DNA from: Rubritalea marina DSM 17716
GTDB taxonomy: Bacteria > Verrucomicrobiota > Verrucomicrobiia > Verrucomicrobiales > Akkermansiaceae
Direction: 5' to 3'
Length of the DNA stretch: 64,000 bases
Assembly (NCBI RefSeq): GCF_000378105.1
Contig: NZ_KB899253.1
Coordinates: 1-64,000, forward strand
Below, piece after piece: positions 17,614 to 26,332 of this stretch (positions within the stretch are counted from its first letter, which is position 1; every line of letters begins with the position of its first letter). The translations under genes were made by a program, and so were the position numbers. The notes beneath the pieces are model-generated. The model did not search any database. It was not told the DNA's origin and saw only the letters and a list, made by a program, of their open reading frames with translations.

Positions 17614-20430
17614 CTACCAGAAAATGGAGATGTTGCCGCCCAGGCTTGATTCGTGACCGTGTGACCTCCACGCATAGAGGTAGCCGGCTCCTACTTGGCA
17701 GTTTTGTGTCACTGCTGCTTCCACGCCGAGCCCTGCGATGAGTCCATGTGGTCCGCGGTTTTGGCCAACGAAAGTGCTGCTAGAGATTCCGCCTAAGCCG
17801 GCTCTAATGTCATGGGCGCTATTTTGATCTGCATAGGCATCGTACTCGTAACGCAGTCGAAGCTTAGTTAGAAACTCACCAGCACGGATCTCATGCCTGT
17901 GGGTGAGATCGCATCCGGCACTGAATAGTAGGGCTTGAGCATCTGCTGATTCCACTTGGTAGTCGTAGCTGCTGCCGCCACCGCTCTCATTGAATCCGTT
18001 CTGCTTGAGGTAGGTGTAGAGCGCGCCAATGGATGGGGTGAGGGTGAGATCCTTACGCCATAGATAGTCTTTTTCCAACATCGCTCCGAGGGTGACGCCT
18101 TGGCTTGCAAAGTCGGCGCTGGAGGAGGACGCAATTCCTCCAGAGGTTGTGTGGTTGAGGCGTGAGGCATCGCTTTCCCCGTAGAATCCATTGAGCAAGG
18201 TATTGAGGCGTAGCCCGTTGTTTAGGCGGTGTTGGTTGTAGAGGCCTATGAGGAAATAGTTACTGTCAATATCGTGGTTGATATGGTCGTGCTCTTTGAG
18301 CCTGCTGAACGCGCCACCTATAAAGATTCCAGTGGTGTGGCTTTGGTTGTGAAGCAAGTCGTAGCCTGCGGCAATTCCAAAGATGTCGTAGTCAAAATTT
18401 CCAGTGACATTACTTGCTCCAGTGACGGATCCGTCGGTGAATGCAGTGTCTATCCAGAGCCTTTGTTGGTGTTCAAGTGCTTGATTGATGGTGGCTTTGG
18501 AGTCGTTTGACTGAGCCCGCATGAGGTGTCTTCTGGATGCTTGGCTTAAAGCCATATTGGATATGAGATCGGTGGCTTCAAGGCCGATAGTGAGATTGGA
18601 TGAGTAGGCTTCTGGGTTGTTCTGGCTGGCGGCGAATGCCAAACCTGCGGTTGTGAGTCCTTGTAGCGCTGGATGCATGTTGAGCTGTGCTTGGGTGGGG
18701 GATTGATTGCCGCTGATGCCAAGAGTTTGTTGGATGTATTGTTGTGCTGCTTGTTGTTTGTTGGATGAAGAACTGGGTCTACTTGGAGGTGTTTGAGTGG
18801 TAAGGCTCTGGGGTAGCTGAATGGGCGTTGGTGTTTGTGCTACCGAGGAAACTACCTGCTGTGCGGTCTTGATGCCAAATCTCACCTTTACTTGCTGGTC
18901 GGTAATGGTGGTGCTTTCTGGCTCAGCTCCGACGAAGGCGTGAAAGCTATGGGCGTCCTCGACTATGTTGGCTGTTGGAAGTTTCGAGAGTCCGCTGGCT
19001 GCAGTGATCACGGTGAATTCTCTACCATTGAGATAAGCGCTGGGGCTCTGCGCCATTTGGTTGTCGACCAGACTGATGACAGGAAGGGTATTCATGTGGA
19101 CTGCGCCAGCGACTTGGACTTGGTCGTGGGTGGTTCCTGGGAGGTCGCCCGCGCCTTGCGTGGGGTCCATGTTGACGCTGTACTTGGTGCCACTGAGGTC
19201 AAGTGCACCGCTGCCATTGAAGCTCAGTGTGCCGATTCCATTGTTGATGTTACCGGGGCTGAGTTGAATGATTTTTTGTAATGTTTTGGTTCCGAGTTCT
19301 ACGGCACCATCTCCATAGAGTCGGCTCACTTCGGTATTGGAGTATACTTGGGAGATGTCGAGGGTGGCGCCGGCATCAATACTGACCGACGAGGCGTCAA
19401 CCAAAGTGGCATCACCAGCCAGTCCGAGGGTGCCAGCCTCGATGCTGAGGTCGCCTTTGTAAAAGCGACTGATGCCGTGGAGAGTGATCTTGCTAGTCCC
19501 TCGCTTGATGAATCTCCCAGAGCCTTGAAAAGTGGCGCCTGGGATGTCTGCATCGAATGATTGGTCAAAAATGAGGCTGCCGCCATTCAGTGTGGTACGG
19601 GTGCCGTAGACAAAGGCATTGGATGTGATTTGAAGTTCTCCTTCGTTGACCTCGATGTAGCCGAAACCGTCGGTGAAGCCAAGGCTGTCACCTGAGGCTT
19701 TATTGACATCTCCGTTGAACGTAAATTTTCCAGTTCCTCTCTTGGTGAGCTGTGGGAGGCCTTGGTTGTCATAAATGATATTCCCGTTGTACGTGTAGTC
19801 ATTGCCATCGCCATTGTTGACGATGATGTCGCCGTAGTTGTTGCTTTTTCCAATATTGGTGAGGCGGATGTCGCCATCTCCTTGGATGGCTCCTAAGCTG
19901 ATGTACTGGCCAGTGGTGCTATCTAGGTTGAACTCGACGTGAAATGTACTTCCACTGTCGATATTGAAGTAGGCATTCTCAACGTGAAGGCGCGTGGTGG
20001 ATGAGCCAGTGTTGTGTGTGATTAGCTTAAATTGCGCATTGTTGGTGAGGTGGACATCGCCTTGAATATTCGTGCTGAAGTTCGAATACATTGTCACTAG
20101 TCCTGAGCCGCTGCCCCCGTCATCGATGGTCAGTCCGTTACTAATGTTGATATTGGGAACTACAAATGCCATGCCTGTACCCATGCTGTTAATTGTTAGG
20201 CTATTGGGGTAAGTTAAGCTGCTGTTGGTGCCACCAACAATGCAAGTGGCAGTGGATCCATCGTTTCGGCCATTGATCACGGTGAAGCCTGGACTGGTGG
20301 GGAAGCTTCGTGGGTCGACTGCTGTACTGCCAGTGTGGTCACAGACTGTGTCTGCGGCGTAGACTTGCTTAGAAATTGGTAGAGAGAAGATGATACCAAT
20401 GACGATTTGGGAGGTAGTATAAACTTTCAT
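17614..20430 (-). CDS. Autotransporter adhesin-like outer membrane protein
   Basis: This 938-residue protein has a signal peptide (ending near QVYAADT). A long passenger of Gly/Asn/Thr-rich beta-helix repeats includes the autotransporter-associated pattern LSIEAGTLGLAGDATL near residue 330. A Pro/Gln/Ser-rich linker lies around 540-570. A C-terminal beta-barrel of roughly 290 residues ends in the aromatic ISIFW typical of translocated barrels. The passenger is displayed on the surface; what it binds is unknown. It is transcribed divergently from the mlaF gene. Passenger repeats do not identify a catalytic domain, so adhesion or surface structure is the most likely role. Confidence 0.82.
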   Translation of the reverse strand: MKVYTTSQIVIGIIFSLPISKQVYAADTVCDHTGSTAVDPRSFPTSPGFTVINGRNDGSTATCIVGGTNSSLTYPNSLTINSMGTGMAFVVPNINISNGLTIDDGGSGSGLVTMYSNFSTNIQGDVHLTNNAQFKLITHNTGSSTTRLHVENAYFNIDSGSTFHVEFNLDSTTGQYISLGAIQGDGDIRLTNIGKSNNYGDIIVNNGDGNDYTYNGNIIYDNQGLPQLTKRGTGKFTFNGDVNKASGDSLGFTDGFGYIEVNEGELQITSNAFVYGTRTTLNGGSLIFDQSFDADIPGATFQGSGRFIKRGTSKITLHGISRFYKGDLSIEAGTLGLAGDATLVDASSVSIDAGATLDISQVYSNTEVSRLYGDGAVELGTKTLQKIIQLSPGNINNGIGTLSFNGSGALDLSGTKYSVNMDPTQGAGDLPGTTHDQVQVAGAVHMNTLPVISLVDNQMAQSPSAYLNGREFTVITAASGLSKLPTANIVEDAHSFHAFVGAEPESTTITDQQVKVRFGIKTAQQVVSSVAQTPTPIQLPQSLTTQTPPSRPSSSSNKQQAAQQYIQQTLGISGNQSPTQAQLNMHPALQGLTTAGLAFAASQNNPEAYSSNLTIGLEATDLISNMALSQASRRHLMRAQSNDSKATINQALEHQQRLWIDTAFTDGSVTGASNVTGNFDYDIFGIAAGYDLLHNQSHTTGIFIGGAFSRLKEHDHINHDIDSNYFLIGLYNQHRLNNGLRLNTLLNGFYGESDASRLNHTTSGGIASSSSADFASQGVTLGAMLEKDYLWRKDLTLTPSIGALYTYLKQNGFNESGGGSSYDYQVESADAQALLFSAGCDLTHRHEIRAGEFLTKLRLRYEYDAYADQNSAHDIRAGLGGISSSTFVGQNRGPHGLIAGLGVEAAVTQNCQVGAGYLYAWRSHGHESSLGGNISIFW

Positions 20431-23419: not shown

Positions 23420-24478
23420 ATGTCCACCACCACAGTCACCCTCGGCGATCGCACCTTTGAGATTGATGAAGCCAAAGCGCAGGAAGCGTACGCGGCGAAG
23501 AAAGTCATCAATGGTCGTGACACCATGTTCTTCAATATCCTACCGCTGAAGTACCAGTGGGCGTACGAGCTGTATAAGGAAATGAAGAACAACCACTGGG
23601 AGCCTGAAGACGTGGCGCTTCGCGCGGATGCCGACCTATGGGATGCCTTGCCGGAGGAAGCGCAGCAGGTGCTACAGATGCTGATGGGCTACCAAGCAAG
23701 CTCAGGCGAGATCACAGGAGCGGAAGAAATTTATGCGATTCGTGACATTGTCACCGCCCCCGAGCTCAAGCTTGTATTTGGCCGCTACGTGCACGAGCAG
23801 AACACTCAGCAAGACGTCCTTGTTCATATCTTTAGTTCACTCGGGCTCAACCCGAGCCAATGCACCCAAGGATTCGCCGAGGTAGCCGCCAAGCTCAGCG
23901 CGTTTACCGCCGAGCACCTGGTTGAGCTTGATCGCCACCTCGACATGACTGATTTGGCCAACAAGCGAGCCTTCGCAAAGAACACCTTTTTCTTCAGCCA
24001 GTGCATGGAAGGATTGCAGCTCTACAGTCTTTACGCTCAATTGATTGGGCTTGGGCACCGAGGCCTGCTCACAGGCGTTTCTGAGATCTTTACCAAATTG
24101 CTTCGTGATGCGGGCTTCCGCTGCGAGCTCTTCCGGAAGCTCTTCATCGAGCTTTGCCAGGAAAACCCAGACATCCGCGATGCCGCCTTTGATGCTGAGC
24201 TCGAGGCACTGATGCAATCTGCGGTAGCGGTTGAGCAGGAGTTTATAGCGAATGCTCTTCCTGAGCTTGAGCAATCAGGTTATACTGCAGAGTCACTCAC
24301 TACTTACATTGACCACGTAGCCGCCAAGCGACTGGCCTCTTGTGGTCTTGGCCCAGAGCCTGCTGGCTCCTCCTTGCCACAGCTAGACGAAGTATTCTTC
24401 CCGAGTGAGGTGCACGCTATGCACGCCAGCGCCACAACCTCCAGCAGCATTTCTGACTTCGACGACGACGACCTTTAG
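23420..24478 (+). CDS. Degenerate ribonucleotide reductase R2 paralogue lacking metal ligands
   Basis: This 352-residue protein aligns with the class Ic R2 encoded just downstream over its whole length, gap-free for at least the first 134 residues. Of the six dimetal ligands of that R2, only Glu197 remains. Glu96 is Gly, Glu127 is Gln, His130 is Gln, Glu233 is Ala231 and His236 is Arg234. Leu134 occupies the radical-Tyr position, so it cannot hold a normal metal-radical cofactor. The frame is intact, and the end (SDFDDDDL) keeps the R2 tail used to dock on R1. A structural partner of the active R2, as yeast Rnr4 is for Rnr2, is the best inference. I chose the ATG at 23420 because it matches the start of the sister gene; an upstream in-frame ATG at 23249 exists. 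Confidence 0.85.
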   Translation: MSTTTVTLGDRTFEIDEAKAQEAYAAKKVINGRDTMFFNILPLKYQWAYELYKEMKNNHWEPEDVALRADADLWDALPEEAQQVLQMLMGYQASSGEITGAEEIYAIRDIVTAPELKLVFGRYVHEQNTQQDVLVHIFSSLGLNPSQCTQGFAEVAAKLSAFTAEHLVELDRHLDMTDLANKRAFAKNTFFFSQCMEGLQLYSLYAQLIGLGHRGLLTGVSEIFTKLLRDAGFRCELFRKLFIELCQENPDIRDAAFDAELEALMQSAVAVEQEFIANALPELEQSGYTAESLTTYIDHVAAKRLASCGLGPEPAGSSLPQLDEVFFPSEVHAMHASATTSSSISDFDDDDL

Positions 24479-24490
24479 CGAAGCTAAAGG

Positions 24491-24605
24491 AGTGATCAGT
24501 GTGGAGTGCGAAGTGTGAAGCCCAGCATTCCTCAGCAACCACTCCTAAAAACCCTAGGTTTCAAATTATAAAATACTCCTCACTTCACACTCCCAACTTA
24601 TCACT
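24491..24605. repeat. MITE-like inverted-repeat element 1, directly after the first R2 gene
   Basis: The left end AGTGATCAGTGTGGAGTG and the right end, read on the opposite strand as AGTGATAAGTTGGGAGTG, form imperfect terminal repeats of about 24 bp around a 115-bp element. It is preceded by a hairpin (CTTTAGC-gaa-GCTAAAG) that contains the TAG stop codon of the R2 gene. Inside lies ACCCTAGGTT at 24551, a motif that recurs in other intergenic regions. Confidence 0.6.
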
Positions 24606-24612
24606 TGCACCC

Positions 24613-25695
24613 ATGACAACAACCCAACTCGCTGACGCTTCCATCACTCTAAACTCCGATGCTGCTGAGCAAATTATTGCTAGCAAGCGCGTGATCAATG
24701 GCACCACCCCAACTGGCTTTGGACTCGCCCCACTCAAGTACAAGTGGGCCTACGAGATCTACAAAAACATGCGTGCCAACCACTGGGAGCCAGAAGACAT
24801 CACCATGCAGAAAGATGTCGAGCAATGGCGCAGCGATGAAGTGTCCGACGTCGAGCGTTGGATCATCAAGATGGGCATTGGCTACTTCTCAGCCGCCGAA
24901 GGGATCGTTGGCGACAACGTGATCCACGTGATTCGTGAGCTCGTTTCAGCACCAGAGCTCAACCTCGTATTCCGCCGCCACGGCCACGAAGAAAACATCC
25001 ACGCCGACTCACTCGTCTACATGGTTTCTTCCCTAGGCATCAATCCACACGAATGTGAGGCGATGCTCGAAGACATCCCAACGATCAAGGACAAGACCAA
25101 CTTCGTGGTGAGCAATAGCCGTGGCCTCCGCCGCGACATGGACATGACCAAGCTCGAGAACAAGCAAGCGCTCGCGCGCAACATCTTCATGTTCGGCCAA
25201 GTCATGGAAGGCACCCAGTTCTACGGCCTCTTCGGCATGATCCTCAGCCTCTACCGCCAGAACAAATTCCCTGGGATCGGCCAGATGTTCCGCTACACCC
25301 TGCGTGACGAATCGAACCACATCGAACTGCTGCGCAACCTCCTCATGGATCTCATCGACGAGAACCCAGAGATCTGGACCGCCGAATTCCAAGAAGACCT
25401 CCGCGCCACCATGGCCGAAGGGATCCGCCTCGAAAAAGCCTTCATCCGCGATTGCCTTCCAGTGGCCGCTGTGGGACTCAATATGGCTGAGTTCGAGCAA
25501 TACATCGATTTCATTGCTGACCGCCGCCTCACATCCTGTGGACTCGCTCCATTGGTCGAGGGTGGAACCTCAAACCCATTCCCATGGCTCGCCGAGATGA
25601 TGGACATCAAGAAGGAACAAAACTTCTTCGAAGGCCGAGTCACCGAATACCAAAAAGCTTCGGCACTAGGAGAGATCGACGATGACGATCTCTAG
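24613..25695 (+). CDS. nrdB: Class Ic ribonucleotide reductase small subunit R2
   Basis: The protein has 360 residues. All six ligands of Chlamydia-type R2 are present: Glu96 (SAAEGIVG), Glu127 and His130 (HEENIH), Glu199 (QVMEGTQFY), Glu233 and His236 (RDESNH). The radical Tyr of class Ia is Leu134 here. Phe or Leu at this place marks class Ic, where a Mn/Fe centre replaces the tyrosyl radical. LKYKWAYEIY, FFEGRVTEYQKAS and NPEIW are shared with chlamydial R2. The tail EIDDDDL is the R1-docking peptide. With NrdA it reduces ribonucleotides for DNA synthesis in air. The ATG at 24613 was chosen because upstream in-frame sequence is part of the repeat element. Confidence 0.92.
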   Translation: MTTTQLADASITLNSDAAEQIIASKRVINGTTPTGFGLAPLKYKWAYEIYKNMRANHWEPEDITMQKDVEQWRSDEVSDVERWIIKMGIGYFSAAEGIVGDNVIHVIRELVSAPELNLVFRRHGHEENIHADSLVYMVSSLGINPHECEAMLEDIPTIKDKTNFVVSNSRGLRRDMDMTKLENKQALARNIFMFGQVMEGTQFYGLFGMILSLYRQNKFPGIGQMFRYTLRDESNHIELLRNLLMDLIDENPEIWTAEFQEDLRATMAEGIRLEKAFIRDCLPVAAVGLNMAEFEQYIDFIADRRLTSCGLAPLVEGGTSNPFPWLAEMMDIKKEQNFFEGRVTEYQKASALGEIDDDDL

Positions 25696-25708
25696 CGCAG
25701 CTAGAGCG

Positions 25709-25784
25709 AGTGATACGTGTGAAGTGTGGAGTGCGAAGTTCCAACTAGCCTGCACTTATGACTTCACACTCCTAACTCATCACT
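25709..25784. repeat. MITE-like inverted-repeat element 2, directly after nrdB
   Basis: A 76-bp element has AGTGAT at its left end and ATCACT at its right end. Its inner repeats (GTGTGAAGTGTGGAGTG and the complement of GAGTGTGAAGT) match element 1. As in element 1, a hairpin (CTCTAGC-gca-GCTAGAG) holding the stop codon of the R2 gene precedes it. The next gene starts 6 bases after its right end. Confidence 0.55.
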
Positions 25785-25790
25785 AAGCGA

Positions 25791-26189
25791 ATGATTAAAA
25801 CCTTTGAAGATTTAGACGTATGGAAACGCAGCTGCCAGATGGCAGTGGACGTTTACAGCGTGCTTCAAGACTCAAAGGATTATGGACTAAAAGACCAAAT
25901 GCAGCGCGCAGCTGTATCGATAGCATCAAATATAGCAGAAGGTTCTGACCGTGGGAGTACAGCGGAGTATATCCGTTTTCTCCGCTACAGCAAGGCATCC
26001 TGCGCTGAGCTTCGAACTCAGTTATACATAGCCCAAAGAATTCGGAAAAACTCCAATCAAGAAAGCCTCCAGAACGGCACTGAGTTAATTCAAGAAAGCA
26101 AAGAGATCTCTGCCATGTTGCAGGCTCTGATTAATACACTAGAACAAAAAACCAAAACCCCAACGAACCCAAAAACCTCGAACCAGTAG
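25791..26189 (+). CDS. Four-helix-bundle protein (23S rRNA intervening-sequence protein family)
   Basis: This 132-residue protein shows the family pattern [21 protein letters not shown], then [45 protein letters not shown], four amphipathic helices without catalytic residues. Relatives are encoded in intervening sequences of 23S rRNA genes, beside diversity-generating retroelements (Avd) and as isolated genes of unknown function. Here it lies between nrdB and nrdA, flanked by the MITE-like element 2 and by a 61-bp direct repeat whose first copy covers its last codons. An inserted passenger gene seems more likely than a reductase component. Confidence 0.82.
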
Positions 26190-26315
26190 TTTCAGAAGTC
26201 CAGCACTTCACACTCCTCACTTCACAGATACAAGTTTGTCTTAAACCTCCAACTAACCCAAAAACCTCGAATCAGTAGTTTCAGAAGTCCAGCACTTCAC
26301 ACTCCTCACTTCACA
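26166..26315. repeat. 61-bp direct repeat, two copies 89 bp apart
   Basis: 26166-26226 and 26255-26315 are the same 61-bp sequence with one obvious difference (C versus T in CTCGAACCAG/CTCGAATCAG). Both contain CAGTAGTTTCAGAAGTCC and then CTTCACACTCCTCACTTCAC, the same low-complexity text as in the MITE-like elements. The first copy includes the stop codon of the four-helix-bundle gene; the second ends 17 bases before nrdA. Confidence 0.85.
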
Positions 26316-26332
26316 CTTATCCCTTTCCTACC

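Follow-up and report, generated by a model that had tools for sequence, protein, structure and literature searches.

In Saccharomyces cerevisiae, the active small subunit of ribonucleotide reductase (RNR) is a beta-beta' heterodimer in which R4, a paralog of R2 without the iron ligands, is inactive alone and is needed for correct R2 folding (PMC3267527). Apicomplexan R2_e2 proteins are fast-evolving R2 paralogs that lack the tail tyrosine and coexist with one normal R2; they keep the metal-coordinating positions, and the Plasmodium member, PfR4, interacts with PfR2 and PfR1 (PMC3824934). In bacteria, the class Ic NrdB of Chlamydia trachomatis is treated as a homodimer, and Liberibacter asiaticus has a short nrdB form without the active site, for which a heterodimer has been speculated (PMC5154197). 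This short nrdB was the only bacterial case in the open-licence literature that we searched, which contained nothing on Rnr4-like subunits in bacteria or on the NrdB of Verrucomicrobia; priority cannot be claimed. Class I RNRs show half-of-sites reactivity, in which the two halves of the alpha2-beta2 interface are never engaged together; evidence for this exists for classes Ia, Ib and Ic (PMC8463856). Why the R2 dimer is symmetric despite this reactivity, and what the idle subunit does, is an open problem on which the gene pair described here bears.

The pair is found in Rubritalea marina DSM 17716 (GCF_000378105.1; 3.0 Mb, 95.5% complete), at positions 1 to 64,000 of the forward strand of contig NZ_KB899253.1 (contig 7), a stretch of 64,000 nucleotides hereafter called the window. 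It consists of a degenerate R2 gene (nrdB', product DEG) followed by a catalytic R2 gene (nrdB, product CAT). Its likeness to yeast Rnr4/Rnr2 is an R2 paralog without iron-ligating side chains beside an intact R2. The differences are that the bacterial genes form a three-gene cluster with nrdA, that CAT has no radical tyrosine and has lost conservation of its N-terminal arm, and that DEG is of separate origin: it lies among Verrucomicrobiota class Ic-like R2s, its nearest sequences are Chlamydia-type R2s, and the expectations of common descent with Rnr4 were not met, the Rnr4 chain ranking well behind in sequence and 33rd in fold. As far as can be judged from sequence, DEG functions in the manner of Rnr4 but outside that lineage, while the heterodimer and its requirement for activity are inferred only. 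Like R2_e2, DEG evolves fast and lacks the tail tyrosine, but it has lost four or five of the six metal ligands, and R2_e2 is eukaryotic. The C. trachomatis NrdB is the top sequence and fold match for both DEG and CAT and shares with CAT the Glu first ligand and the absence of Tyr from the radical site; CAT, however, has Leu instead of Phe there and is accompanied by a degenerate partner. The Liberibacter short gene encodes a 125-aa fragment that shares more than 99% identity with the 3' end of its long counterpart, whereas DEG is an old full-length paralog.

An initial annotation of the region had proposed two adjacent full-length R2 genes with common DDDDL tails. This held, as both ORFs are intact and both proteins terminate in DDDDL (Table 1). 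DEG and CAT share 37% identity and match the Pfam family Ribonuc_red_sm (PF00268) with 144 and 216 bits, respectively (cut-off 33.6), so both belong to the R2 family. The spacer between them measures 134 bases and the stretch between CAT and nrdA 637 bases. The annotation had not mentioned nrdA downstream or, between nrdB and nrdA, an ORF of the 23S rRNA-intervening-sequence type (PF05635, window 25791-26189); in the other pair genomes CAT and nrdA are too close together to accommodate it. Both CAT and this ORF are flanked by imperfect direct and inverted repeats of GTGTGAAGTGTGGAGTG (24491-24605, 25708-25784 and 26198-26324); there are four copies in the window against 0.02 expected and few elsewhere in the genome, and the nrd cluster may be under invasion by a small mobile element. 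Further upstream, a large minus-strand ORF with an autotransporter beta-domain (PF03797, window 17614-20430) lies ahead of the ABC/MlaD-type genes that precede the cluster. No NrdR-box-like pattern was found within the window, and promoter and terminator scans gave matches at or below chance level.

Table 1. Position of the nrd genes and of their segments in the window (secondary structure elements as in the AF2 model of DEG).
Feature	Position	Strand	Remarks
nrdB' (DEG), degenerate R2 paralog, 352 aa	23420..24478	+	Intact full-length ORF; five of six metal ligands lost
DEG residues 1-63	23420..23608	+	N-terminal arm, made of a beta hairpin, a short helix and a loop, plus helix A, which holds the NHWEP motif
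DEG residues 95-141	23702..23842	+	End of helix B and helix C; forms the contact between R2 chains in a solved NrdB dimer (PMC6754362)
DEG C-terminal R1-docking peptide DDDDL	24461..24475	+	Tail tyrosine upstream of the peptide lost
nrdB (CAT), class Ic-like R2, 360 aa	24613..25695	+	Six ligands, tail Tyr346, DDDDL end
CAT residues 1-60	24613..24792	+	Diverged N-terminal arm
nrdA, catalytic subunit, 1096 aa	26333..29623	+	ATP-cone at the N-terminus; third of the clustered nrd genes

DEG and CAT were the only PF00268 proteins in this genome. Neither NrdD nor, using an NrdA search that does detect class II-like proteins in other genomes, an NrdJ or class II-like protein was found in the 95.5% complete assembly. 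In the absence of any other R2, NrdD or NrdJ-like match, the pair appears to serve the only ribonucleotide reductase that the cell has, as far as this level of completeness permits the conclusion.

The initial annotation was also exact regarding the metal site. CAT keeps the complete set of six ligands (E96, E127, H130, E199, E233 and H236), while the corresponding DEG positions, in its own numbering, are G96, Q127, Q130, E197, A231 and R234, so that only E197 is kept and the five losses are those proposed (Glu to Gly, Glu to Gln, His to Gln, Glu to Ala and His to Arg). We then compared, in this order, the residues equivalent to E. coli W48, D84, E115, H118, Y122, E204, D237, E238, H241 and Y356. 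All 64 complete single R2s, as well as all complete paired catalytic R2s, presented the pattern W E E H L E D E H Y. The two Rubritalea DEGs read W G Q Q L E D A R and those of the other two genera carrying the pair W Q E R L E D (V/I/T) R, the latter keeping two of the six ligands. The tail tyrosine was missing from all 15 distinct DEG sequences, a loss that the annotation had left unmentioned together with the retention of the W48 and D237 positions, which, like that of E204, are kept in all 15. The H241 position was occupied by Arg in every DEG and the H118 position by Arg in all but the two from Rubritalea. DEG therefore fails both criteria for a radical-generating R2, the six-ligand set and the tail tyrosine. 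Since ligand loss recurs in 15 distinct DEG sequences and never in the 64 complete single R2s, it is more than chance. In most DEGs two Glu and two Arg would occupy the former metal site, and we infer that they pair through salt bridges.

CAT meets the criteria for subclass Ic, with Glu at the first ligand (E96) and Leu (L134) at the site of the radical tyrosine, features also absent from the initial annotation. Leu is a documented replacement in R2c proteins (PMC3824934), and the best solved relatives of CAT were the Chlamydia NrdB and a related R2. CAT can thus be described as class Ic-like; a Mn(IV)Fe(III) cofactor is inferred by homology, without metal data.

Another alternative is that DEG acts independently of CAT, with its own redox or binding activity, in the manner of the R2-like ligand-binding oxidases (R2lox). 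In its favour, the cavity residues are non-random, with Q-E-R-E-(V/I/T)-R invariant in two genera. However, eight residues, five of them ligands, are common to all R2 clades and R2lox (PMC3824934), and DEG is without the metal ligands that R2lox retains. In addition, DEG always adjoins CAT and retains the R1 tail, which makes this alternative very unlikely.

To determine how widespread the pair is, we searched related genomes with a profile built from five DEGs. Scores were bimodal, with DEGs at E below 1e-174 and ordinary R2s above 1e-132. DEG was found in 15 out of 244 genomes of the family Akkermansiaceae, giving at least 15 carriers in three genera: two Rubritalea (R. marina and R. profundi, among the 12 genomes of the genus sampled), Persicirhabdus sediminis and 12 of the 14 genomes of a third genus (g12), in which all eight high-quality genomes have both DEG and CAT. 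A sample of 387 genomes from the order and another of 388 from the phylum contained no DEG outside these genera, so that among the sampled Verrucomicrobiota it is confined to one family. In every carrier where CAT was seen it lies directly downstream of DEG, with nrdA next, and the order DEG-CAT-nrdA on the same strand with short spacers was found in 12 out of 12 genomes in which all three coordinates were read. The R. profundi CAT (L004:2607-3733) contains a one-base frameshift beside the first ligand in a draft assembly, probably a sequencing error. Other relatives have one R2, including seven of the nine Rubritalea genomes with an R2; three genomes of the Rubritalea group (G003, G008 and G009, 82-93% complete) gave no R2 match. 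The pair is therefore not confined to the lineage of the window, and the ligand losses recur in relatives, with residues that differ between Rubritalea and the other two genera. The initial annotation had considered that relatives lacking DEG would refute its proposal; most of them do lack it, but they carry one R2 with the ancestral arm and core, and for that reason we do not count their lack of DEG as a refutation.

A simple explanation would be that DEG is a functionless duplicate undergoing decay. On the protein tree, the rate of evolution of DEG is several times that of CAT, most of the metal ligands of DEG are gone and most relatives do without it, all of which would fit. In contrast, all 15 DEGs have open frames, dN/dS between the closest carrier pairs was 0.04-0.08 for DEG (0.01-0.05 for CAT), a maximum-likelihood codon model gave an omega of 0.054 for DEG and gene order is kept in three genera. 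Together with the segments without amino-acid changes described below, these values all but exclude decay; a pseudogene, another outcome that would have refuted the initial annotation, is ruled out by the dN/dS and the open frames. Its impression that fold and frame were conserved was likewise confirmed. The AF2 model of DEG keeps the ferritin-like helical fold of R2 (pLDDT 86, pTM 0.85), and the best PDB match of this model in Foldseek was the Chlamydia NrdB (TM 0.79-0.87).

The main new result is that constraint is divided reciprocally between the two proteins, DEG keeping the arm and CAT keeping the core. We scored the sites that are conserved in at least 95% of 64 single R2s, separating the arm and helix A (residues 1-60, 29 sites) from the core (158 sites). 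Arm sites were kept at 0.93-1.00 in single R2s and at 0.93-0.97 in DEGs compared with 0.66-0.72 in CATs, whose range overlaps with neither of the others. At core sites, the values were 0.96-1.00 for single R2s, a median of 0.96 for CATs (the minimum, 0.14, corresponds to the R. profundi frameshift fragment) and 0.47-0.53 for DEGs. The switch between arm and core behaviour was abrupt and occurred directly after the W48 motif. When the DEGs of the window and R. profundi were compared, residues 1-63 showed 24 silent and residues 95-141 showed 28 silent changes, i.e., 52 silent and no amino-acid changes in the two segments combined, while the other 240 codons accumulated 96 amino-acid-changing and 68 silent differences. 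In a solved NrdB dimer, the R2 interface is a four-helix bundle made of helices B and C (PMC6754362), and the DEG docking peptide keeps 0.98 of its conserved sites. As the invariant segments map to these parts, DEG has kept the arm, the dimer surface and the R1-docking peptide and lost the rest. In CAT, helix C carries fixed changes where single R2s are invariant, namely K117E (N in Rubritalea) and G121R.

Gene conversion cannot account for the conserved DEG arm, because 64% of the synonymous sites in residues 1-63 differ within the Rubritalea pair (synonymous divergence 0.64); given this divergence, the conservation reflects selection on the protein. Recombination as the origin of the odd CAT arm was also considered and no donor was found among 388 Verrucomicrobiota genomes, the best match being another CAT (61%), with others at 45-58%.

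A second tandem R2 pair beside nrdA was identified in two genomes (G508 and G592) of another family of the class (L136:1631-4032 and, on the reverse strand, L137). Both copies present all six ligands and the tail tyrosine. Copy one has a diverged core (47-49% to CAT) and a conserved arm, and copy two a conserved core (67-69%) and a diverged arm. Scored against 28 single R2s of their family, the diverged-core and conserved-core copies kept, respectively, 0.90 and 0.73 of the arm sites, 0.55 and 0.97 of residues 61-100 and 0.59 and 0.92 of the rest of the core. Both copies cluster with single R2s from the family that carries them and separately from DEG and CAT, indicating that this duplication was independent. 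On the evidence of two genomes, this pair looks like a less advanced form of the split between DEG and CAT.

Regarding the history of the DEG/CAT pair, the protein tree recovered DEG and CAT as one clade each (SH-aLRT 100 in both), with broadly matching branching of the two subtrees. The NrdA of the two Rubritalea carriers clusters with Rubritalea. The CAT of these carriers groups with the other pair genomes instead of with the Rubritalea single R2s (AU p 0.001 at full length, only 0.09 when the arm was left out), which disfavours vertical inheritance of the pair inside Rubritalea. It is therefore likely, though not settled, that nrdB'-nrdB moved between genera and joined the resident nrdA. 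A pair transferred onto a resident nrdA would work with NrdAs that have no pair-specific residues. NrdA co-adaptation was in fact not supported, as the pair-shared sites (1) were fewer than the control sites (7).

We consider it likely (probability of about 0.72, with no physical or expression data) that DEG is a non-catalytic beta' in an obligate asymmetric beta-beta' heterodimer with CAT, similar to Rnr2/Rnr4 but of separate origin. The non-catalytic, Rnr4-like role put forward in the initial annotation is thus the best-supported reading, the heterodimer itself remaining an inference. In this model, NrdB' would pair with NrdB to form an asymmetric small subunit that docks on NrdA through the DDDDL tails of both chains. 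CAT alone would build the metal cofactor, of Mn/Fe class Ic type by homology, and the radical would travel through CAT W58, D232 and the tail Tyr346 to NrdA. DEG would contribute an N-terminal arm that is still intact, a dimer surface from helices B and C and the other docking tail, and may stabilise CAT through folding, metal loading or holoenzyme assembly; both this stabilising role and a dependence of CAT on DEG are inferred. We further infer that the arm of each subunit packs on the other, for which we found no support in the open literature and inspected no coordinates. If the arms cross in this way, the DEG arm would be kept because it touches the conserved CAT core, and the CAT arm would have drifted because it touches the altered DEG core. 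An AlphaFold model of the Persicirhabdus DEG and CAT read through as a tandem fusion was weak in both arms (pLDDT 75, pTM 0.66). Observations against the main reading are that most R2-bearing Rubritalea genomes do with one R2 and that NrdA shows no residues specific to pair genomes.

The initial annotation had offered a regulator of R1 and a metal-loading helper as alternatives, and each is less favoured than a heterodimer partner. As a regulator, a dead DEG homodimer would compete for NrdA through DDDDL and damp its activity. All DEGs do retain the docking peptide while lacking the tail tyrosine, and one study discusses, for E. coli and Liberibacter, half-site heterodimers that result from truncated, non-functional beta' chains (PMC5154197). 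Nevertheless, a competitor would not need an invariant arm, and neither the loss of CAT arm conservation wherever DEG is present nor the same split in an independent, ligand-intact pair would be explained; we regard this role as unlikely. Also improbable is that DEG helps CAT only transiently, as a chaperone for folding or metal loading, and has no place in the active holoenzyme. The description of yeast R4 as required for correct R2 folding (PMC3267527) speaks for it, but the retained R1-docking peptide would then be needless. A partner role for DEG remains the best-supported reading, given its invariant, docking and interface parts and the loss of conservation in CAT exactly where DEG is conserved.

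A bolder reading, which the present data leave evenly balanced, is that bacteria evolved obligate beta-beta' class I RNRs at least twice by reciprocal R2 degeneration, one copy keeping the cofactor core and the other the N-terminal arm and dimer surface. One lineage would in addition have swapped the second metal site for Glu/Arg pairs and so made permanent the half-of-sites asymmetry, which in other RNRs is only kinetic. The named carriers R. profundi and P. sediminis make the pair testable, and the constraint map marks the segments to mutate. If true, the pair would be a bacterial counterpart of yeast Rnr2/Rnr4 that evolved separately in a class Ic-like background. Altogether, the bacterium appears to have genetically fixed the asymmetry of its small subunit, with the cofactor on one subunit and only the interface and docking parts on the other.
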